From: a virus
Length of the DNA: 21,710 nt
IMG/VR virus record: IMGVR_UViG_3300010211_000003
Location: 1 to 21,710 of that record
Strand: one strand, 5' to 3'
The notes under the pieces were generated by a model. It saw only the letters and a list, made by a program, of their open reading frames with translations. It ran no database searches and had not been told where the DNA came from. A program made the position numbers and the translations under genes. The number at the start of each line of letters is the position of its first letter. Within the stretch, counting starts at the first letter, position 1. Positions 5,165 to 19,835 of this stretch are shown in pieces.

Positions 5165-5827
5165 TCAGGGCGCGTCGTCATCTGGGGGCGGGCTGGCCTC
5201 GGCGCGTGTCTTGCGCAGGCGGTCGAGGGCCTTTTTCACCCCCACGCCCCGGTCGAGGGCGTAGGCGCGCTCCAATCGCTCCAGGGCCAAGGCGGGATCC
5301 GTGCCTTCGACGGCCAAGCCCAACACCTTGAGGGCCTTGGCGCGTACCGGGTCGTGCATGTCGCGGCCCTGGGTCAGGCGCAAGGCGCTGTCCAGGGCGG
5401 GCAGTGCGGTCGGATCGACTTCGCCGGCGCGGGACAGTTCCTCCACCAGCCAGGTTGCGGCGTCGCGGTCGAAGCCGTCCGGCATGGCCAGGTCGTGCCC
5501 GACCACATAGGCCGCCAGGCGCAAGGCGCCGTCCCAGTCCCCCACGTCGACGGACCAGATCATCATCATGACCACCACCGGGTCCTGACGGCCGCTGTCG
5601 GCGGCGAGAACCTCGTCCACATAGGGGCGGTAGTCGGGCAACAGGGCGCGCTTCATCTCAGCGCGCGTCTCCAGGGACTTCACGGCGCGGAGTTGATCCA
5701 GGTGGCCCTTCAGGCCGCGCAGCATGCGGGTGAGGCCGGGCGCGGTGTCCGGGCCGGCCGTTTGCGTCGGGGTGGCGGCGTCGGCCCGGGCCAGGGCGGC
5801 GGCGCGCGCGCGTTGCGCCGGCGTCAT
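5165..5827 (-). CDS. M: Terminase small subunit (P2 gpM)
   Basis: A 220-residue protein beginning MTPAQRARAAALARADA, the usual gpM opening (spaqrh...), with the conserved FDRDAATWLVEELSRAG segment and a C-terminal helical part LERAYALDRGVGVKKALDRLRKT. Terminase small subunits recognise the packaging site and, with gpP, cut and package DNA. The ATG overlaps the gpN stop as TGATG. P2 gpM is slightly longer. Extending the frame upstream would run into gpN coding sequence. Confidence 0.92.
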   Translation of the reverse strand: MTPAQRARAAALARADAATPTQTAGPDTAPGLTRMLRGLKGHLDQLRAVKSLETRAEMKRALLPDYRPYVDEVLAADSGRQDPVVVMMMIWSVDVGDWDGALRLAAYVVGHDLAMPDGFDRDAATWLVEELSRAGEVDPTALPALDSALRLTQGRDMHDPVRAKALKVLGLAVEGTDPALALERLERAYALDRGVGVKKALDRLRKTRAEASPPPDDDAP

Positions 5828-6837
5828 CACGTCCACCCGCCCTGACCGTCGGGCTGCAGGATGCCCTCGATCAGGCAACAGGCGCCGGTGTCCTCGATCA
5901 CGTAGCACTCGTTGACCGACTGGAAGTCGACGATGCGATCCCAGGCCGGTTGATCTTCGACGCGGCGGCGCCGGGTGCCGGTCTGCCAGTAGATGGACAG
6001 GTTTTTGGGGTTGCCGATGAACAGGGTCGAAGCCGGGAAGAACGGCACCACCTGGGCCTTCTTGCCGCCGATTTGACGGCCGACCATCAGGGTCCGCAGC
6101 GCGACCGCTTCCGTGGGCGTGCCCACGTTATCCTCGATCAGGTCCAGATAGCGTTCGGTCAGCAGGTTGCGGCCGACGATACAGACGATCTCGGCGTCGT
6201 CCTTGTACCAGTCGTCGAGGTAGGTGTTGACGGCGTCGAAGACCAAGCCATCCAGGGTTTTGTAGTCTCCGCCGTTGCCGACCTTGGGACCGGTGTAGAC
6301 GCGGGCCGGGTCGGCGGTGCGCAGGTGCTGCAGCCAGCCGATGTTGACGTCCTGCAGCAAGGGGTTCGCCACCAGATCCGTGGTGGCCGCCGCCGTGGTG
6401 CCGTTCCAGCCGATCATCAGGCGGTCGCGGGCGATCTGTTCGGTGACCTTGCCCCGCACCCGGGTTTGGAAGTCCGGGAACTTGGCCCAGGCGTCCAGGG
6501 TGTCGTAGCGGATGAAGCTGTCGAAGTTGGTCTGGCGGGTCAGGTAGTCCCGCTTGCCCAGGCCGTGGATGTCGCGGGGCTGACGCGGGGTGGTGGTGGT
6601 GTCGGTGCGGCTGGCGATGGGGCTGGTGGTGCCCAGGCCCAGTGCCTGGCCCGAGGGCTGAGAGACGCCCATGACGTTGACGCGCTTGAGGAAGTCGGCG
6701 GATTGCTGGATGCGGTTTTCGAGCCGCTGTTCGACGGTCGGATCCACGGCGAACTGCTGGGTGGCGTCCGGTACCCCGTTGAGCCGCGCGAGGTCCGCGC
6801 AGTAGGTGTTGAAGACGACGCGGGTATCGTTGCGCAT
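5827..6837 (-). CDS. N: Major capsid protein precursor (P2 gpN)
   Basis: A 336-residue P2-family capsid protein. It has the typical N-terminus TRVVFNTYCADLARLNGV, where family members show ...f..y...va..ngv, then RVNVMGVSQPSGQALGLGTTSPIASRTDTT, DWYKDDAEIVCIVGRNLLTERY and the C-terminal IVDFQSVNECYVIEDTGACCLIEGI. gpN is assembled with the scaffold/protease gpO and cleaved near its N-terminus during maturation. It lies two bases downstream of gpO. Confidence 0.96.
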   Translation of the reverse strand: MRNDTRVVFNTYCADLARLNGVPDATQQFAVDPTVEQRLENRIQQSADFLKRVNVMGVSQPSGQALGLGTTSPIASRTDTTTTPRQPRDIHGLGKRDYLTRQTNFDSFIRYDTLDAWAKFPDFQTRVRGKVTEQIARDRLMIGWNGTTAAATTDLVANPLLQDVNIGWLQHLRTADPARVYTGPKVGNGGDYKTLDGLVFDAVNTYLDDWYKDDAEIVCIVGRNLLTERYLDLIEDNVGTPTEAVALRTLMVGRQIGGKKAQVVPFFPASTLFIGNPKNLSIYWQTGTRRRRVEDQPAWDRIVDFQSVNECYVIEDTGACCLIEGILQPDGQGGWT

Positions 6838-10970: not shown

Positions 10971-11921
10971 ATGGACACGTACTTGGAAATTGCGCAGAAG
11001 GTGCTTCGGGCAGCCCGCCGTCCAATGACGGCTGAAGCAATACTTAATGCGGCGTATCGCGCAAAAATCGTTCCCCATCACCTTTATGGAAAAACACAAC
11101 ACAAAACACTGCAAGCGCGCCTAAGTGAATACATTCTGGAAAATAACATAGATGGTGTGTTTTATAGGACAGACCCAGGATATTTCTTCCTATCCGAATT
11201 CATGTCAGACCAGTCAATACCGAATAAGTATAAGGACCCTTTTTACGCGCGAAGACGAGTGCGAGACATTCCAAATTCGATGACATTGTCCTTTGATTCG
11301 GGATTTGTTGAAAATTATTTGGAAAGAGAAAGCCGTGACTGGCAAACTCTCATCGCTGCAGCATCTTCTGCGGGGGCAATTCGCTACGTCCACCCAAAAG
11401 AAGTATCAGAACGAGACGCTTTAGTCTGGTCATTTTCCGTAGTAAAAAAGGGAGATATGATTCTTAGCTATCGCATTGGAAAGTATAGAGACCAAACGAA
11501 AGTTTTTAAAAACAAAAGAACGGTTGGTTTTGCTGATCGGGTTTCTTATTGTGATCGAACCCTATTTTCAGGCTCGGATATGGGTATTGTTGACCGTGGA
11601 CAAAAAACCATATTTTCTGATCTAGGTATATCTAAGGGTGCATTTTATGGCAGTCGCGACATTGAGTCGCCGTCGATATCGTTTGTATTCTCAAGCAAGA
11701 ACGAGCGCATAGCGCAAAATGTATTGTTTGTTACGGAATGGAATTGCCCGAATTGGTTCGAGCCAACAATCCGGCGCTTATCTTTGAATGATATTCAATG
11801 GCTAGATGGCAAAAGATGCCCAAATGATCTGGAGCACTTTGATCCTTGGTCAGTAAAATACTTCAGCTTCACTCTGCAGCAACTTCAAGTATTTAGTGAT
11901 GAGGTGGGGTGTCTACGATAG
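10971..11921 (+). CDS. HARE-HTH domain protein with unassigned C-terminal domain (putative defence gene)
   Basis: A 316-residue protein. Residues about 3-74 (YLEIAQKVLRAARRPMTAEAILN...KTLQARLSEYILEN...FYRTDPGYFFL) match the HARE-HTH winged-helix domain found in restriction and chromatin proteins. The remainder, about 130-300, has LVWSFSVVKKGDMILSYRIG and KNKRTVGFADRVSYCDRTLF, which faintly recalls the NUDIX-like fold seen in conflict systems, but the NUDIX box is absent and the assignment is uncertain. An in-frame stop at 10950 limits the start; the ATG follows a weak CAGGG. Base composition is much more AT-rich than the prophage. The CHAT gene begins 75 bases downstream in the same direction, suggesting an operon. 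Confidence 0.8.
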   Translation: MDTYLEIAQKVLRAARRPMTAEAILNAAYRAKIVPHHLYGKTQHKTLQARLSEYILENNIDGVFYRTDPGYFFLSEFMSDQSIPNKYKDPFYARRRVRDIPNSMTLSFDSGFVENYLERESRDWQTLIAAASSAGAIRYVHPKEVSERDALVWSFSVVKKGDMILSYRIGKYRDQTKVFKNKRTVGFADRVSYCDRTLFSGSDMGIVDRGQKTIFSDLGISKGAFYGSRDIESPSISFVFSSKNERIAQNVLFVTEWNCPNWFEPTIRRLSLNDIQWLDGKRCPNDLEHFDPWSVKYFSFTLQQLQVFSDEVGCLR

Positions 11922-11996
11922 ATATTAAGGGCATCCCAAGAAAGTGTCAAAAAAATAGACGCATAGATAATGTTAATTTATGTGGAGGGCGTTTTT

Positions 11997-13706
11997 TTGA
12001 AGTTAATTGGAAAAGAAAGAGCAGCATTTATAAAATTTGAAATCGAAAATGGGGATTCTTCTCGCGCTAAAAAAGCCCTTCAAGAACTATCTTTTTTATA
12101 TAGAAAAGGGCATGCCCTCTCCGGAAGCGATCTGCATTCTTTCCAAATTGCCATCAATGGAATCATTTTAAAACAGGGTCAAGATATTAAAGTTGTCAGA
12201 TGGGGCCTAAATGCGCTCGCAAGATTTGGCTCAATTTGCGTTTGTGGTGATTATGTCAACGCCGCACTTAGAAAGTTTGAAGGAATCCCGGAAATTCAAG
12301 CGTCTGGTGTTGCGTGTCTTGTCAAGATGCATCGAGGCATTACCGATAGGATCGGAATTTTAAATAATATAGAGCCCAAAATCTGGAAACTTGCTGCCTT
12401 ACAGGTGACGGAGCCAAAATATTTAGATTTTGAAGGACTTCGGATAAATATTGATAACGAGGGAATTGACGTTTTAAAATTGGCGCTTATTACTGTTGGC
12501 CTAAATCGTTGCTTTGAAAATCTATTTGATCCTAAATACAGAAACGGAGAAATTGTAAGGCATTTGTGTTTGCATGATGATGTTATTGTTCAGCAATATA
12601 GCGTATGGGCTATTATTGAGAACAAGAGTTTGAGTATAGATCACCTTGGTATCGACGTTGAGAAAATAGACGACTTAGCGGAAAACGTTCAAGCTAAAGC
12701 ATACCAGTTAATTGCAGAATCTGACCCTGATTTACATCGCCGTCTGCGCATAACAAGTGACTGTTCCGTATACGGTGGTGCCGAAGCGCGAGAAGGATTA
12801 GCTCGCGGAGTTCTCTCCAACTACTATGATGGACTTCAAGACATCACTATAAGCTGGTTCGACCAGGAGTCGAATCACTCTGTTAGAGAAATATTGGCGC
12901 AGCACTTTGCGAAAAACGCTTTTCATTGTCCAGTATATTGGAGTAAATCTGAGGAAATATATGATCAATTCGAAGAGTTTCGTAAAATTATTTTAGTGGG
13001 TTCTGAGGGGACCAATCTTTATTCGACATTAAAAGGAAAGCAGACTGCAGATTTATTTACAGATTACACACCTCGCGGTGACTTAGTTTCTACTCTTTCA
13101 CAAAGCAGTCTTCTGGAGGGAAAGATGACAAAGAAGGTTCTTTTTATGGCGGTTTCTCCATTAAACGAAGAGCCGCTTCGATTAGATCAAGAATATAGAG
13201 ATGTAAAAGATCACATAAACCGCCTAAATAATAAAGCGGTAAATATAGAAATTATTTATGAGACAGCTGTTAGGTTGGATGATATACAAACTCATTTACT
13301 TAATTCAAATCCAGATATATTACACTTCTCCGGTCACGGGGACCAAGGGGCCCTGATTTTTGAAAAATTGGATGGTACAGCCGGCGTGGTGCGCGGCGAC
13401 ATCATAGCGGAATATATTAAGATGCTTCCCTCTATAAGGTGCGTTGTGTTGAACGCTTGCTATTCCGAGACTATAGTCGAATCTATTGCCTCGAATATTG
13501 ACGCTGTTATAGGTTGCGAAGGGCCTATCGCAGACGAAGCTAGTGTGGTTTTCTCAAAATCATTCTATCAGGCTCTTAGTTCTGGGCGCTCTTACGAAGA
13601 TTCATTTAATTTTGGCGTCATTGGGGTTCGCAATCAAGTCACTGATGAAGAGGCGCTGAAATATAAATTGGTGTCTGGAAATACAGGGTTTCCCAGGCTT
13701 GGGTAA
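11997..13706 (+). CDS. Helical-repeat protein with C-terminal CHAT (caspase-like) protease domain
   Basis: The C-terminal 190 residues are a CHAT protease. KKVLFMAVSPLNEEPLRLDQEYRDV opens the domain, HFSGHGDQGAL holds the catalytic His447 and VVLNACYSE the catalytic Cys488. About 380 preceding residues look like HEAT-type helical repeats, a likely sensor or partner-binding part. I chose a TTG start at 11997 because GGAGGG lies seven bases upstream; an in-frame ATG at 11970 has no ribosome site and would give 578 residues. An internal GGAGGG-AAAG-ATG at 13115-13127 could yield the protease domain alone. Codon use is AT-rich, unlike the phage. In defence systems CHAT proteins act as effectors that cleave cellular or partner proteins; that role is inferred here. 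Confidence 0.85.
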   Translation: MKLIGKERAAFIKFEIENGDSSRAKKALQELSFLYRKGHALSGSDLHSFQIAINGIILKQGQDIKVVRWGLNALARFGSICVCGDYVNAALRKFEGIPEIQASGVACLVKMHRGITDRIGILNNIEPKIWKLAALQVTEPKYLDFEGLRINIDNEGIDVLKLALITVGLNRCFENLFDPKYRNGEIVRHLCLHDDVIVQQYSVWAIIENKSLSIDHLGIDVEKIDDLAENVQAKAYQLIAESDPDLHRRLRITSDCSVYGGAEAREGLARGVLSNYYDGLQDITISWFDQESNHSVREILAQHFAKNAFHCPVYWSKSEEIYDQFEEFRKIILVGSEGTNLYSTLKGKQTADLFTDYTPRGDLVSTLSQSSLLEGKMTKKVLFMAVSPLNEEPLRLDQEYRDVKDHINRLNNKAVNIEIIYETAVRLDDIQTHLLNSNPDILHFSGHGDQGALIFEKLDGTAGVVRGDIIAEYIKMLPSIRCVVLNACYSETIVESIASNIDAVIGCEGPIADEASVVFSKSFYQALSSGRSYEDSFNFGVIGVRNQVTDEEALKYKLVSGNTGFPRLG

Positions 13707-13881: not shown

Positions 13882-14247
13882 TTAAGGTGTCCAAAAAAGA
13901 ATCAGTCTGAAGTGGTTGACGATCGCCGCATTGCTGACCGACGTCCATCCAGAGATCAAAAACACCGTTCGCCGGGCCCCGGCGCCGCCGATGGAATAGG
14001 CTACGTCCAGGGTCTTGATGTCGGCTCCGGTCTCGGACAAGGACCGGTTCTCGGGGCAGTCTTTGTAGCTCAATACCCACCGGCCCTGAGGCCGCAGGGT
14101 GTCGGCCAGCCGGGCGTGGTCGTTGTGGCCGAAGATCCTGGGACCATAGCGCCTCTCATAGACGTGATAGGGCGGGTCCAGATAGACTAGGGCATCCGGC
14201 CAGTCATGCCGGCGCAGGGGCTCGTTCCACGGCAGGCACTCGATCAC
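13882..14247 (-). pseudogene. DNA adenine methylase (Dam-like), N-terminal half missing
   Basis: From a GTG at 14247 the frame gives 121 residues containing DALVYLDPPYHVYERRYGP, where DPPY is the catalytic motif of N6-adenine methylases, then HARLADTLRPQGRWVLSYKDCPENRSL and a C-terminus like that of Dam enzymes. The AdoMet-binding motif and about 150-180 N-terminal residues of a normal Dam protein are absent; upstream in this frame only the formyltransferase gene in another register is found. It overlaps that gene by 44 bases. It is probably the 3' remnant of a dam gene, though a small expressed product cannot be excluded. Confidence 0.6.
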
Positions 14248-14845
14248 GGTGGCCCGCCGACGCCGGCGGTTCCAGGGTGCCCAGGGGGCGACCGAGGTTG
14301 GGTTGGGGCGTCTCGGGTAGCGTCTCGGCCTCTGCGAGCCGCGCCACACAAGCCACCAACAGCCGCCGGCCAATAGGCGCCAAGTCCCGGCGCCACAGGC
14401 TGGCCGGGGTGTCGTCGGCCCGGACAAAACACCAGTCCTGAGCCAGTATAGGGCCGGTGTCGTAGCCGTCATCCATGCGGTAGACCGTGCCGCCGGTGAC
14501 CGGGTCGCCGTTGCGGAGGGTCGAACACACCGCGTCCCGGCCCCGATGCAGCGGCAACAGGCTGGGGTGGTAGCCGATCACCCCATAACGCGCCGCCGCG
14601 CGCGCCTCGGCCGGCAGGAAGACATGACAGTGCGCGGCCACGGCCAAGTCACACGGTGGTATCGCGGCTCCTTCTAGACGACGGCCGGGGCCGTGCAGGC
14701 TCAAGGGCAGGCCCAGGGAGCGGGCGGCGACCGCCAAACGGTCTTCCGCGTTGGGCGCGATGATGTGCAGATCATGCCCCGCCCCCGCCAGATCGGCGGC
14801 GACGGCGGCGGCCAGCCACTTCTGGCCGATCACGACGATCCTCAT
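14204..14845 (-). CDS. Formyltransferase-fold protein of a putative DNA-modification operon
   Basis: A 213-residue protein with the formyltransferase fold of methionyl-tRNA and GAR formyltransferases. It has an N-terminal MRIVVIGQKWLAAAVA, the loop YHPSLLPLHRGRDAV (His93), TGGTVYRMDDGYDTGPIL (Asp129) and no C-terminal tRNA-binding domain. The usual catalytic Asn two residues before His is Gly91 here. The ATG overlaps the stop of the ABC/GNAT gene (ATGA), showing translational coupling. It cannot be the housekeeping fmt gene given its size and context. Transfer of a formyl group to a modified base or to a precursor is an inference. The last 15-20 residues may come from a recombination joint with the dam remnant. 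Confidence 0.8.
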   Translation of the reverse strand: MRIVVIGQKWLAAAVAADLAGAGHDLHIIAPNAEDRLAVAARSLGLPLSLHGPGRRLEGAAIPPCDLAVAAHCHVFLPAEARAAARYGVIGYHPSLLPLHRGRDAVCSTLRNGDPVTGGTVYRMDDGYDTGPILAQDWCFVRADDTPASLWRRDLAPIGRRLLVACVARLAEAETLPETPQPNLGRPLGTLEPPASAGHRDRVPAVERAPAPA

Positions 14846-15954
14846 GATGCCCCCAGATACCGGAAACCCTGAACGGCACGCAGGTGCCCGCCGTAGCCGG
14901 TTCCATGGCCCGACTTGCCAAGGCTCGCAGCCGATCGCCCCTTGTTGGCACCGGTCAGGGTCGCGGAGACTTGCGTCCAGCCGGGATGCTTGCGCAGGGC
15001 GGCGGCAAGGCCGGGGTGGGAGGTGTGGAACAGGGTCCGCAAGGGACGGCGGAAGGGATTGTCCCCCTCCGCCCAGGCGGCGCAGATGGTATTCAGGAAG
15101 GCCATGCCGACCCCGATACCCTGCCACTCCGGCATGACCACCAACCGGCAGGCCCGGGCCTCCACGACACCGGGCTGGGTCGTAACGCCCAGGTGCGCGA
15201 CCGGGGCGCCGTCCACGGTGCCGACGTAGCACCGGGCGGCGATCATGTTCGGCAGCTTCAGATAATGATGCGGCTCGAAAAGCGGCCAGTTGGCCCAGCC
15301 GGTTTCCACGATCTCAAGGGGGAGCGGCGGTCGCCGTCGGCCCCTCCCCACGGTCACCGCGCCGGTGGCCGTGTCACAGCTCCAATCCGGATCCAACCAA
15401 TCCAGGATGTCCTCGTGCGGGGTCAACAGGATCAGGCGGTCCTCGGGCACCGACCGGCGCCACGCCTTGGCGAAGGCGGCGGCGCCCACCCGGGCGATCT
15501 GACGGTCGAGGACGCTGGTGAACTCGTCCACGATCACCGGGCGGTCGGGCCGCGACAGGACAAGGCGCGCCATGTCGGCCCGGAAGCGTTCGCCGTTCGA
15601 CAACACATCATAAGGCCGCAGCCAGGCCGGGACGGAGCCCAGCCCGACAGCGGTCAGGACCTGGGTCACGCGATCAAACGGAAGGTCCGGCCCCAGGGCC
15701 TCGATCAGCGGCGTTCCGGCCGGCCACTCAGGCGCCCAGAAGGCGGCGCCGATCCGGTCGACCAGGGCGCGGCCCAAGGAGGTCTTGCCGGACCCGGACG
15801 GGCCGTGGATGACGCCGATCCCGGTCCAGGTGTCCGGCAGATCGACCGCGAGGGAGAAGCCCTCGGCCTCGCCCTCGCAGTTGAACAGGGACCGCACGCG
15901 GGCCGCGCGATAGCCCGTGCCGGCGGTCGGCCCCTTTTGAACGGTGATCCTCAT
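14842..15954 (-). CDS. ABC-type ATPase fused to GNAT acyltransferase (Mom-like modification enzyme)
   Basis: A 370-residue two-domain protein of the type grouped in COG2401. The ABC ATPase part (about 1-205) has Walker A GPSGSGKT (51-58), a signature-like LSNGE (118-122), Walker B VIVDE (140-144) with SVLD D-loop, and H-loop His180. No transmembrane segment is present, so it is not a transporter. The second part (about 215-335) has EPHHYLKLPN and the GNAT motif A LVVMPEWQGIGVGMAFLN (271-288), resembling the GNAT fold of phage Mu Mom, which adds an acyl-derived group to adenine. It overlaps both neighbours as ATGA. Its position downstream of a Com-like gene supports a DNA-modification role. 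Confidence 0.8.
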   Translation of the reverse strand: MRITVQKGPTAGTGYRAARVRSLFNCEGEAEGFSLAVDLPDTWTGIGVIHGPSGSGKTSLGRALVDRIGAAFWAPEWPAGTPLIEALGPDLPFDRVTQVLTAVGLGSVPAWLRPYDVLSNGERFRADMARLVLSRPDRPVIVDEFTSVLDRQIARVGAAAFAKAWRRSVPEDRLILLTPHEDILDWLDPDWSCDTATGAVTVGRGRRRPPLPLEIVETGWANWPLFEPHHYLKLPNMIAARCYVGTVDGAPVAHLGVTTQPGVVEARACRLVVMPEWQGIGVGMAFLNTICAAWAEGDNPFRRPLRTLFHTSHPGLAAALRKHPGWTQVSATLTGANKGRSAASLGKSGHGTGYGGHLRAVQGFRYLGAS

Positions 15955-16100
15955 ACCGCCACCACCCGGAGCCGCAGCCCCATGGCCTGCAGGGTCTCGT
16001 AGGTGGTGCGCTGGTGATCTTCGTCATCGCAGACGACGATCACCGCCCATTGCGGCCGATACTTGAAGCCGTTTCGGCCCGGCGGTGGCTTTGGCGCCAT
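15951..16100 (-). CDS. 49-residue protein between Com-like and ABC/GNAT genes
   Basis: From the ATG at 16100 the frame encodes MAPKPPPGRNGFKYRPQWAV followed by IVVCDDEDHQRTTYETLQAMGLRLRVVAV, a compact alternating strand-helix-strand pattern (VIVVC, a central helix, LRLRVVAV). The TGA overlaps the ABC/GNAT start as ATGA. The first 77 bases overlap the 3' end of the com-like gene in another frame, recalling the overlap of com and mom in phage Mu. A GGGAG lies nine bases upstream. I have no family name for it; its place in the operon and protein-like pattern argue that it is real. Confidence 0.65.
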   Translation of the reverse strand: MAPKPPPGRNGFKYRPQWAVIVVCDDEDHQRTTYETLQAMGLRLRVVAV

Positions 16101-16290
16101 CGAGCGTTTCTCCCGTGACCGGCGCTCTGTGGCGCTCGGGTGAGGGGCTCAAGGCAGATGGAGTCGGGGCCCTCCGGACAGTGATTTCCCCGCAGCGGGG
16201 GCATTTGATGCTGACTTGGCCGGCCTTTAGGTCTTGGATTTCAGCCAGTTTTCTACAGCAAGCGTGGCAGCGGATTGACTCCGGGCGCAT
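16024..16290 (-). CDS. com: Mu Com-like zinc-finger translational regulator
   Basis: An 88-residue protein starting MRPESIRCHACCRKLAEIQD. Cys8-x2-Cys11 and Cys30-x2-Cys33 (IKCPRCGEIT) form the zinc finger of the Com family. Com of phage Mu binds the com-mom mRNA and opens the mom ribosome site. Here the 3' end overlaps the next small gene by 77 bases, so the same control is plausible. The start was chosen for AGGGGA upstream and because the family begins just before the first Cys. The C-terminal 50 residues are low-complexity. A late-type palindrome lies 184 bases upstream. Confidence 0.8.
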   Translation of the reverse strand: MRPESIRCHACCRKLAEIQDLKAGQVSIKCPRCGEITVRRAPTPSALSPSPERHRAPVTGETLDGAKATAGPKRLQVSAAMGGDRRLR

Positions 16291-17056: not shown

Positions 17057-17301
17057 TTTTCCCGAGGGCCAAAGATTGGGGGAAGCCTCGCGCGCATGAC
17101 TAGGTACGCGCTTGCTTACCCTCCCCTCCCCCATATCTCTTCCGGCTGCACCAACACCACGGCCCCCACGATGGGGCAAAGCGAACGCTTACCGGCCGCT
17201 CAACCCGCTAGGCACCCGCCCCGTAAGGCATTGATTTAAAAGACCAAGAACATCGGGCGAACACTGCCTAACGCCCTTGAAATAGCAGAAGAACCGCTGG
17301 C

Positions 17302-17346
17302 CTCTTAATCAGCGGGTCCAAGGTTCGAGTCCTTGTGCGCCCACCA
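17302..17346 (+). other. 3' half of tRNA-Lys(CTT): proposed prophage attachment site
   Basis: The sequence begins at the anticodon loop CTCTTAA (anticodon CTT) and includes the T-arm CAAGG-TTCGAGT-CCTTG, acceptor strand TGCGCCC, discriminator A and CCA. The expected 5' acceptor strand GGGCGCA, a D-arm and a proper 5' anticodon stem are absent upstream, so this is not a complete tRNA gene. Partial tRNA 3' ends are the usual footprint of integration into a tRNA gene. The full gene should lie at the other end of the prophage. Confidence 0.75.
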
Positions 17347-17364
17347 ATTTTATCAAGGGATTAT

Positions 17365-17440: not shown

Positions 17441-18069
17441 TCAGTCCGGTTCCCCATCCGTCCCGCCATTCTTCTCCCCTTCCAGCAGGTCTATCCCGGC
17501 CCGCGCCCGGCGCCGACGATCGGCCGATCGGGTGTATCGCTGCACCATGGCCACCTGCTTGTGTCCCGTGATGGCCGCAATAGTGCGGTCATCGGCGCCG
17601 GCATCGGCCAGGCGCGTGGCCAGCCCGTGACGCAAGCCATGGAAGGTCAGGCGGGGCCCCCACCTTGCCGTCCGCTTCCAGATGACCAGATGACGCACAA
17701 GGCGGAAGAACAGAGCCCGGAAGCCGTCGCCGCTGTAGGGCCGACGGTCGCGGGACCCGGCCACGATGGCTTCGGCTCCCCCAGGTAGTCCAGGATCGCG
17801 CGATATCCCTGTCGGGTTTTGGGGGCAAGTTCGGCGTATTTGGGACTGGCCAGATACAGTTCGCGCAGCCACCCCCAGGTCCCCTTTTCGGAACGGGGTT
17901 CCATGGCCTGGGTTGCCGCGTCCTGGTCGAGGGCCGCAACCTCGGCAATGAACGCGGCGGTGCCTTCCGGGTGCCGCAGGCGCTTTCCCGTGCCCCTGTG
18001 GTACAGGTAAAGAGCACCGGTCTTCGGATTCCGAACGCGCTTGATGCCTTTGATGCGATAGACGGGCAT
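17441..18069 (-). pseudogene. Tyrosine integrase with internal deletion
   Basis: The N-terminal part from the ATG at 18069 begins MPVYRIKGIKRVRNPKTGAL and runs to the SAM-like domain YLASPKYAELAPKTRQGYRAILDYLGE. The C-terminal part in another frame begins around AGSRDRRPYSGDGFRALFFRLVRHL and has the catalytic LTFHGLRHGLATRLADAGADDRT, TGHKQVAMVQRYTR and the TGA at 17441. About 150 residues between them, including the first catalytic Arg, are missing, with a frame change near 17770-17790. A tandem duplication of TCATCTGG (minus strand, 17678-17693) plus an extra G in the G-run at 17657-17661 cancel each other in frame. The protein must be inactive. Confidence 0.85.
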
Positions 18070-18075
18070 GGCGGA

Positions 18076-18327
18076 CTACCCGAAGACCTCGTCCGCCCAC
18101 GTCCCGGTAGCTTGCGCCGAGGTGTGGGCAGCGCCCGGGCCATCCACGTAGGCATCCAGCTTGACGCGGTCATAGCGGACACAGCCCCCGATCCGAACCG
18201 GCTTGACGGGGACATGGGTGCGCAGTGTGCCCGGACTGACCGACAGGTAGGCGGCGGCCTCTTCCACGGCCATCAACCGGGGCCAGCCTGGCAGACGGGA
18301 CAGGTCGCGGGGAGAGCGATGGGTCAT
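18076..18327 (-). CDS. Excisionase-like helix-turn-helix protein
   Basis: An 83-residue protein with MAVEEAAAYLSVSPGTLRTHVPVKPVRIGGCVRYDRVKLDAYVDG, a winged-helix/MerR-type HTH pattern of phage excisionases and AlpA-like regulators found next to integrases. It lies six bases upstream of the integrase remnant on the same strand and has a strong GGAGGG before the ATG. It is the directionality factor or a regulator of the decayed element. Confidence 0.8.
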   Translation of the reverse strand: MTHRSPRDLSRLPGWPRLMAVEEAAAYLSVSPGTLRTHVPVKPVRIGGCVRYDRVKLDAYVDGPGAAHTSAQATGTWADEVFG

Positions 18328-18428: not shown

Positions 18429-19835
18429 ATGGACGCCCCGGAGAAACAAGACAGTCTGGAACGGTGGTGGCAGGAGGCCGATGCCTGGATCACCAGACGC
18501 GCGAAGCACTTGCACCTGCCCCAGGAATTGATCCAGGTAATCCAAATCCTCGCCCGGCTGATTGCCGTTACCCTGGTCATCCTTACTCTGGGATTGGCGG
18601 TTCGGGTCCTGATCCCGATGTACGACTGCGTGATCGTTGGATCTTGTGGTAGCGAAACCCTTTCCGGTGGCGCTTTCGAGCTTCTGAAAACCATCCTGCT
18701 GGGCATCGGTGGCGTGGCAACGCTGCATTTCCTCGCCAAGCGATCCAAGGCGTTGGAACGCACCGCCGAGGCCAATACCAATACGGTGGACAAGCGCACC
18801 GAGGAACTGGCCATGACCCGCCGCGACCACCTGAGCCGGCGCTTCTCGGACTCCGTCAAACAGCTTGGTGACAAACAAGCCATAGAGACCCGCCTGGGCG
18901 GCATCGCCGGTCTCCTGGCGGTTGCCCAGGAAAGCACCCAGGACGCCGAAATGAGGCGAGCCAGAGACACGGACAGCGATGAGCATCAAGACCGTGACGG
19001 CGACGCCGACAGGCAGATGGTGCTGAATGTGCTCTGCGCCTTCCTGCGCACCGGTGGACGGAAATCCAAGGAAGACCGCCCCGACCCGGCGGCCTGGGAA
19101 GACGTGCGGAGCGCCATCAAAGGGATCAAGCCCCTCGCGGTGCCAGGAGAAACATTGGACCTCAGGGGCGCCCAACTGAGCAATGGCCAGTTGATGGGTG
19201 TGGACTTCACCGGACTCGACTTGAGTGGCGCCGACCTGACCGGCGCCACCCTGATTGGCGCCGTGATCACGCCGGAGCAATTGCGATCCGCGAAATCCGT
19301 TACAAGTGTCAACCTGTCGGGTGTCGATCTGTCCGGCGCAGACCTGTCTGGGCTCAATTTGTACGGCGCCATCCTGATCGGCGCCGACCTGACCGGTGCC
19401 ATCCTGACTGATGCCGACCTGACCAACGCCAACCTGACCAAGGCCACGATTACGGTCGAGCAACTGCGATCCGCGAAATCCCTGATTGGCATCCATCTCA
19501 ACCGCGTGAAACTGTCCGGCCTCGACCTGTCCGGCCTCGACTTGACCAATGCCATTCTGGACGAAGCCATCCTGGCCTGCTGTAAAATCACGTCGGAGCA
19601 ACTGCGATCCGCGAAATCCCTGATTGGCATCCATCTCAACGAAGTGAACCTGTCCGGCTTCGACCTGTCCGGTCTCGACCTGACTCGCGCTAACCTCAAC
19701 GGCACCATTTTGACCGGGGCCATCCTGGACAATGTCAACCTGACCGGTGTCCTGCATATTACGCCGGAGCAACTGCGGTCGGCAAAATCCTTGGAGGGGG
19801 TAAAGGGCCTGCCGTGGGGATTGGCCCAGGGCTAA
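18429..19835 (+). CDS. Membrane-anchored pentapeptide-repeat protein
   Basis: A 468-residue protein. Two transmembrane segments are predicted by eye, about 38-63 (VIQILARLIAVTLVILTLGLAVRVLI) and 83-103 (FELLKTILLGIGGVATLHFLA). A polar linker then carries RFSDSVKQLGDKQAIETRLGGIAGLLAVAQES, common in this class. From about residue 243 to 460 come pentapeptide repeats of the A(D/N)LxG type forming a right-handed beta-helix, broken by four inserts ending EQLRSAKS. An ATG with GAGG upstream supports the start. Substrate or partner is unknown. It lies beyond the proposed att site, so it belongs to the older element or the host. Confidence 0.88.
   Translation: MDAPEKQDSLERWWQEADAWITRRAKHLHLPQELIQVIQILARLIAVTLVILTLGLAVRVLIPMYDCVIVGSCGSETLSGGAFELLKTILLGIGGVATLHFLAKRSKALERTAEANTNTVDKRTEELAMTRRDHLSRRFSDSVKQLGDKQAIETRLGGIAGLLAVAQESTQDAEMRRARDTDSDEHQDRDGDADRQMVLNVLCAFLRTGGRKSKEDRPDPAAWEDVRSAIKGIKPLAVPGETLDLRGAQLSNGQLMGVDFTGLDLSGADLTGATLIGAVITPEQLRSAKSVTSVNLSGVDLSGADLSGLNLYGAILIGADLTGAILTDADLTNANLTKATITVEQLRSAKSLIGIHLNRVKLSGLDLSGLDLTNAILDEAILACCKITSEQLRSAKSLIGIHLNEVNLSGFDLSGLDLTRANLNGTILTGAILDNVNLTGVLHITPEQLRSAKSLEGVKGLPWGLAQG
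19458..19640 (+). repeat. Direct repeats inside the pentapeptide gene
   Basis: A 45-base segment encoding EQLRSAKSLIGIHLN occurs twice without change, at 19458-19502 and 19596-19640, 138 bases (46 codons) apart. Diverged copies of the same module (EQLRSAKS) lie near 19276 and 19767. Recent in-frame duplication is the likely origin. Confidence 0.9.

Follow-up and report, generated by a model that had tools for sequence, protein, structure and literature searches.

The window, an entire IMG/VR virus record of 21,710 nt, contains the portal, terminase, capsid, scaffold, tail and baseplate genes of a P2-like prophage. On its minus strand, a Com-like zinc-ribbon gene (16024..16290, 88 codons for amino acids) is followed by a gene for a 49-residue protein (15951..16100), an ABC-ATPase/GNAT fusion gene (14842..15954) and a gene for a formyltransferase-fold protein (14204..14845). 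The Com gene overlaps the 49-residue protein gene by 77 nt. ATGA start-stop overlaps connect the 49-residue protein gene to the ABC-GNAT gene and the ABC-GNAT gene to the formyltransferase-fold gene in the window sequence. These overlaps and the order of the four genes agree with an earlier note on this DNA, as does the Com zinc finger in front of the operon, which matches Pfam PF10122 just over the cut-off at 16290-16024. The same note had counted a Dam remnant as a further operon component, and this part of the gene set did not hold. The remnant is an ORF on the minus strand (13882..14472) that contains a C-terminal fragment of a D12 (Dam-type) methyltransferase, with homology from approximately position 14262 downward, limited to positions 158–252 of PF02086; it is a degraded flank. 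The ORF overlaps part of the formyltransferase-fold gene in a different reading frame. A D12 gene is found near the module in only three other loci, and Dam was rejected as an operon component as a mere fragment that is not conserved in related loci.

The co-occurrence of the gene families across genomes, which the earlier note had proposed as a check, revealed a conserved module. Fifty-four phage records and hundreds of contigs of viral or bacterial origin contain relatives of the ABC-GNAT protein, and 177 ABC-GNAT loci, including the window and not dereplicated, were surveyed. The order Com, small protein, ABC-GNAT and formyltransferase-fold protein is observed in 62 of these loci, and a ParB protein precedes ABC-GNAT and the formyltransferase-fold protein in 45 others. 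A further 11 loci, several of them from Streptococcus, Lactococcus, Leptospira and other phages, combine ParB and ABC-GNAT without the formyltransferase-fold gene. Of the 165 loci not truncated downstream, 137 carry the formyltransferase-fold gene after ABC-GNAT, and its start mostly lies within 50 nt of the ABC-GNAT end. It is absent from 28 untruncated loci, 10 of which contain Com; because such loci exist, the formyltransferase-fold gene is common but not obligatory in every system. The gene order, with Com or ParB in front, recurs in more than 130 related loci, far beyond chance. The isolated Mu-like Pseudomonas phage Komp_PAO1_1 displays the same order of Com, 49-residue protein, ABC-GNAT and formyl protein beside a tail-fibre assembly gene. 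Its Com gene (5683-5931 of locus L001) is unannotated, and CDS0028 is annotated there in a different reading frame.

In phage Mu, Com is a small RNA-binding switch protein that turns on the enzyme protecting Mu DNA. The window Com is predicted to be an RNA-binding translational activator of the same kind. It matches the Pfam family Zn_ribbon_Com (PF10122) weakly, with an E value of 4.6e-5 just above the curated cut-off, and phrog_6417 (translational regulator) with an E value of 4e-8. A two-sequence BLASTP comparison with Mu Com yields an E value of 1e-4. The four cysteine residues of the zinc ribbon are invariant in the Com alignment, and the frame relation of Com to the next gene is the same in 72 of 79 Com loci. 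From its sequence, the window Com is predicted to activate translation of the next gene.

A candidate Com-recognition RNA hairpin (GCGCC-ACA-GAGCGC; 16122..16135, minus strand) is located 21 nt before the start codon of the 49-residue protein. The hairpin consists of a four-pair GCGC/GCGC stem and a CACAGA loop and contains CC(N)2-3GAG exactly. In SELEX experiments, Mu Com selected this motif, which it binds within a hairpin close to the structure that inhibits mom translation (PMC6483171). Hairpins of this class occur in 44 of 64 dereplicated Com-ABC-GNAT loci, compared with 1.0 expected from shuffled sequences, and are rare in the absence of Com (2 of 45 ParB loci and 1 of 32 other loci). 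As a positive control, the same definition recovers the Mu hairpin, ATGCCTGCGAGCAT, 16–17 nt before the mom GTG, which was taken as the mom start, while the record annotates an upstream ATG. Even when pairing is not required, these regions hold CC(N)2-3GAG at approximately ten times the density found elsewhere. The three additional flanking pairs all form in 116 of 181 CC(N)2-3GAG cases, compared with 82 of 1414 elsewhere. Two hairpins spaced 22–23 nt apart are found in many Com loci.

The hairpin region shares sequence with the end of the Com reading frame, so that part of its conservation could be at the protein level. However, the stem covaries through several pair types, which goes beyond what protein-level conservation of Com would predict. 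The outer pair is A-U in 57 cases, G-C in 55 and U-A in 6, and the next pair is C-G in 60, G-C in 58, U-A in 9 and A-U in 6. An Rfam scan of the window and six loci returned no match. Single-sequence folding was set aside as proof of a translation-inhibition structure because it was uninformative: the window region is not more stable than shuffled sequences (z = −0.4), and Mu behaves likewise (z of approximately 0).

A separate search of viral contigs for Com extended the association from the ABC-GNAT module to other DNA-modification genes. Among 56 dereplicated census loci, 53 contain the hairpin, compared with 0.85 expected, most often 15–21 nt before the next gene. The gene that follows Com encodes a DNA methyltransferase in 51 loci and belongs to the ABC-GNAT module in 5. 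All 50 methyltransferases that were scanned match Pfam families (33 D12, 14 N6/N4 and 3 C5), and one further follower is D12 by sequence. The viral contigs L192–L270 have a D12, N6/N4 or C5 methyltransferase after Com, and in almost all of them one or two hairpins precede its start codon. In genomes of two bacterial classes, Com is followed by a Mom homologue, three D12-type methyltransferases and one C5-like methyltransferase, the D12-type and C5-like genes being assigned from sequence motifs. No significant Mom match was obtained among the Com-census loci, including those with ABC-GNAT. The census shows that Com and its hairpin constitute a general RNA switch before phage DNA-modification genes, one that fronts at least five sorts of such genes: Mom, the D12, N6/N4 and C5 methyltransferases, and ABC-GNAT. 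Because the genes that follow Com are DNA methyltransferases or the ABC-GNAT module, and because they share the hairpin, the operon probably modifies DNA.

The 49-residue protein occupies the position of mom after com and corresponds by homology to the ParB/Srx C-terminal tail. It matches phrog_28816 (E = 3e-17) and aligns with ParB C-terminal tails in the same sequence pattern, such that one profile covers both. In other phages, a ParB/Srx protein precedes ABC-GNAT. The full ParB protein is present in 56 relatives, while the window retains only the ParB C-terminal tail as a separate protein, and Com and a ParB domain are never found together (0 of 79 Com loci). Because its pattern matches those tails, the most plausible reading of the 49-residue protein is a ParB tail that has become separate from the ParB domain. 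In a quick ABC-GNAT tree of moderate support, the ParB forms are deep and the Com forms cluster within them. One viral contig (L034) carries a ParB-type locus inside the Com-type branch of this tree, which suggests a swap back from Com to ParB.

The ABC-GNAT protein consists of an ABC-ATPase domain (approximately residues 1–205) and a GNAT acyltransferase domain (approximately residues 206–370) and is proposed to be a DNA acyl-modifying enzyme. It matches phrog_11143 with an E value of 2.4e-125. The ATPase domain conserves the Walker A motif, the LSNGE signature, the Walker B DE residues, the D-loop and the H-loop, and the GNAT acyl-CoA loop, PEWQGxGxG, is invariant in the family. The AlphaFold model of the fusion has a pLDDT of 86.9; the alignments behind this model and that of the formyltransferase-fold protein were composed of the window and loci from outside the phage-record collection. 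Because the acyl-CoA loop is retained, the donor is likely an acyl-CoA. It belongs to the same family as the protein of Tenacibaculum phage pT24 (hhalign profile probability of 100 and E = 8.8e-49; tblastn E = 1e-34). This example belongs to an ABC-ATPase/GNAT family that Iyer and colleagues (2013) predicted to acyl-modify DNA (PMC7824862), and the window protein is likewise predicted to acylate a DNA base. ABC-GNAT was also considered as a Mom homologue and rejected, given that a two-sequence BLASTP comparison yields an E value of 0.078 over 28 residues, not a meaningful match. A PADLOC search with ABC-GNAT returned only a weak ABC-signature match to mad3.

The formyltransferase-fold protein matches PF00551 (E = 2e-21) and is most similar to the hydrolase domain of FDH (ALDH1L1) in both sequence and fold. 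The best PDB match of its profile is the FDH hydrolase domain with 166 bits, compared with 107 bits for Fmt, and its AlphaFold model (pLDDT of 90.5) retrieves FDH as the best Foldseek match with 36–37% identity. The catalytic His (134 of 134) and Asp (135 of 135) residues are retained. The Asn residue required by amine formyltransferases is found in none of the 134 aligned members and is replaced by Gly in 110, Ile in 10, Ala in 8, Ser in 4 and Val in 2; the window protein contains Gly before its HxSLLP motif (GYHPSLLP). On account of the missing Asn and the FDH affiliation, a canonical amine N-formyltransferase of the Fmt, GART or ArnA type was rejected. FDH has Ile at the corresponding position, and its Ile104Asn substitution reduces the hydrolase activity to below 10% (PMC4388273). 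Transfer of a formyl group to a pantetheine thiol has been proposed both for FDH, with phosphopantetheine as the acceptor (PMC4388273), and for the HypX N-terminal domain, with formation of formyl-CoA (PMC6802093). The phage protein differs from both in that it is free-standing, comprises approximately 200 residues without a dehydrogenase or decarbonylase domain and is partnered with ABC-GNAT. Because the protein is of the FDH/ALDH1L1 type without the catalytic Asn, direct formylation of an amine is less likely than the making or handling of an activated formyl group. An activated formyl thioester is the preferred model, given the domain type and the FDH and HypX precedents for a thiol; since the case for a thiol acceptor depends on a single residue position and on the closest family, this step is put forward tentatively, as a possibility.

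These features can be combined into a mechanism for the operon. Com would bind the hairpin upstream of the 49-residue protein gene and turn on its translation, as the conservation of the hairpin implies. ATGA coupling at the gene overlaps would then bring about translation of ABC-GNAT and the formyltransferase-fold protein. Late in infection, ABC-GNAT and its 49-residue ParB-tail partner may use ATP and an acyl-CoA-type donor to acylate the exocyclic amine of a DNA base. In the weakest step of the scheme, the FDH-like protein would pass a formyl group from 10-formyl-tetrahydrofolate most likely to a thiol, for example producing formyl-CoA for the GNAT domain, or might otherwise tune the acyl group. 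The likely benefit would be resistance to host restriction.

Com control of a DNA modification is quite probable on the strength of the regulation and the genomic company of the operon, with DNA as the putative substrate in preference to RNA or protein. The overall explanation, a DNA-modification operon in the position of Mu mom with an FDH-type formyl subunit, is also probable. The earlier description of a Com-controlled Mom-like operon is supported at its core by the Com hairpin and the census followers; Mom homology and Dam drop out of it, and direct amine formylation becomes less likely. ABC-GNAT would play the Mom part as the enzyme of a probable Com-controlled DNA-modification operon, but it is a member of the pT24-type family without detectable homology to Mom. 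Similarly, the formyltransferase-fold protein had been suggested to add or prepare a further group, and preparation of an activated formyl group is favoured over direct addition to an amine. A fully formyl-based modification, in which the FDH-like protein makes formyl-CoA and the GNAT domain formylates a DNA amine under Com control (e.g. to N6-formyladenine or N4-formylcytosine), is doubtful, more so than the thioester step alone.

Two other roles of the formyltransferase-fold protein are each unlikely. If it acted after the GNAT domain, ABC-GNAT would add an aminoacyl-type group and the formyl protein would cap the free amine, with DNA modification still correct. The usual formylation of amines by formyltransferase-fold enzymes, the rank of Fmt as the second-nearest family and the location of the gene downstream of ABC-GNAT fit this order of events. 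However, the Asn that Fmt, ArnA and GART require is missing throughout the family, which groups with FDH, and the GNAT domain retains a canonical acyl-CoA loop. Alternatively, the protein could be a hydrolase or regulator that shifts folate or formate pools during infection without supplying any atoms of the modified base. On its own, the FDH hydrolase domain hydrolyses 10-formyl-THF (PMC4388273), and the phage family, in keeping with the loss of activity in the Ile104Asn variant, never contains Asn. A gene for general metabolism would hardly be expected to lie so close to ABC-GNAT in more than 110 loci.

A role of ABC-GNAT in acylating RNA polymerase, a defence protein or another host protein, with Com merely timing late expression, is improbable. 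Such activity has been reported for the phage GNAT Rac, and proteins are the predicted targets of many phage GNATs (PMC7824862), but all other genes found after Com encode DNA methyltransferases or Mom, and the ABC-GNAT family itself is predicted to modify DNA in the same source. Unrelated moron genes brought together by chance in a decaying prophage, a reading to which the Dam fragment, the short integrase ORF and the adjoining AT-rich cargo island might point, can be dismissed, as the census contradicts it: dozens of distant phages and several phyla share the gene order, the overlaps and the hairpin, and the operon is 88–90% identical to the Rhodospira and Roseospira copies.

The probable DNA-modification operon resembles Mu com/mom in its Com zinc finger, in the CC(N)2-3GAG hairpin just upstream of a start codon, in the overlap and relative frame of com and the gene behind it and, in the Mu-like relative Komp_PAO1_1, in its location beyond the tail-fibre genes. 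It differs from Mu in that three genes replace Mom, ABC-GNAT lacks detectable Mom similarity and the window phage is P2-like. Mu-like prophages of the FluMu hin1523 and Hia5 type and their relatives reportedly carry a methyltransferase at the mom position. Another modification gene thus takes the place of mom there too, and the Com-methyltransferase loci of the census share the same hairpins, but that gene is a single methyltransferase, unlike the proposed multi-gene acyl system of the window. The tRNA acetyltransferase TmcA is also an ATPase fused to a GNAT domain and acylates a base amine; its ATPase is a helicase, in contrast to the ABC ATPase of the window protein, and its substrate is RNA. 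The pT24-type systems share the protein family and the predicted acyl modification of a DNA base (PMC7824862), whereas the window has Com and a freed ParB tail in front instead of a ParB protein and an FDH-type formyl protein behind.

The role of ABC-GNAT as a DNA acyl-modifier had already been predicted by Iyer and colleagues, as cited in that source. What seems to be new is the broad occurrence of the Com hairpin, together with the derivation of the 49-residue protein and the type of the formyl subunit. The combination of GNAT, formyltransferase and Mom was not found described in the literature covered, the Iyer 2013 paper lying outside that coverage. A poorly characterised but widespread ABC-GNAT family is tied to DNA modification through its regulation, beyond its gene neighbourhood, and the operon suggests a DNA modification whose chemistry is not yet described. 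The presence of the same operon in Komp_PAO1_1, an isolated phage of PAO1, makes this chemistry directly testable.

In Rhodospira trueperi, Roseospira marina and a viral contig (L018), the operon block recurs at 88–90% identity with portal and terminase matches close by, and a second viral contig (L019) matches it at 83%. Between the portal gene and the operon, the plus strand of the window (10971-13706) encodes a HARE-HTH protein and a CHAT-domain protein, possibly a defence pair. This island, with approximately 40% GC inside a prophage of approximately 70% GC, adjoins the operon and is likely acquired cargo. A sequence at approximately 17276-17347 resembles the 3′ part of a tRNA-Lys gene and adjoins a short tyrosine integrase ORF (17441-18215). 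ARAGORN called no tRNA across the window, and the tRNA-Lys-like sequence beside the integrase is a probable attachment-site remnant. On the far side of the integrase, the plus strand encodes a pentapeptide-repeat protein (18429-19835).
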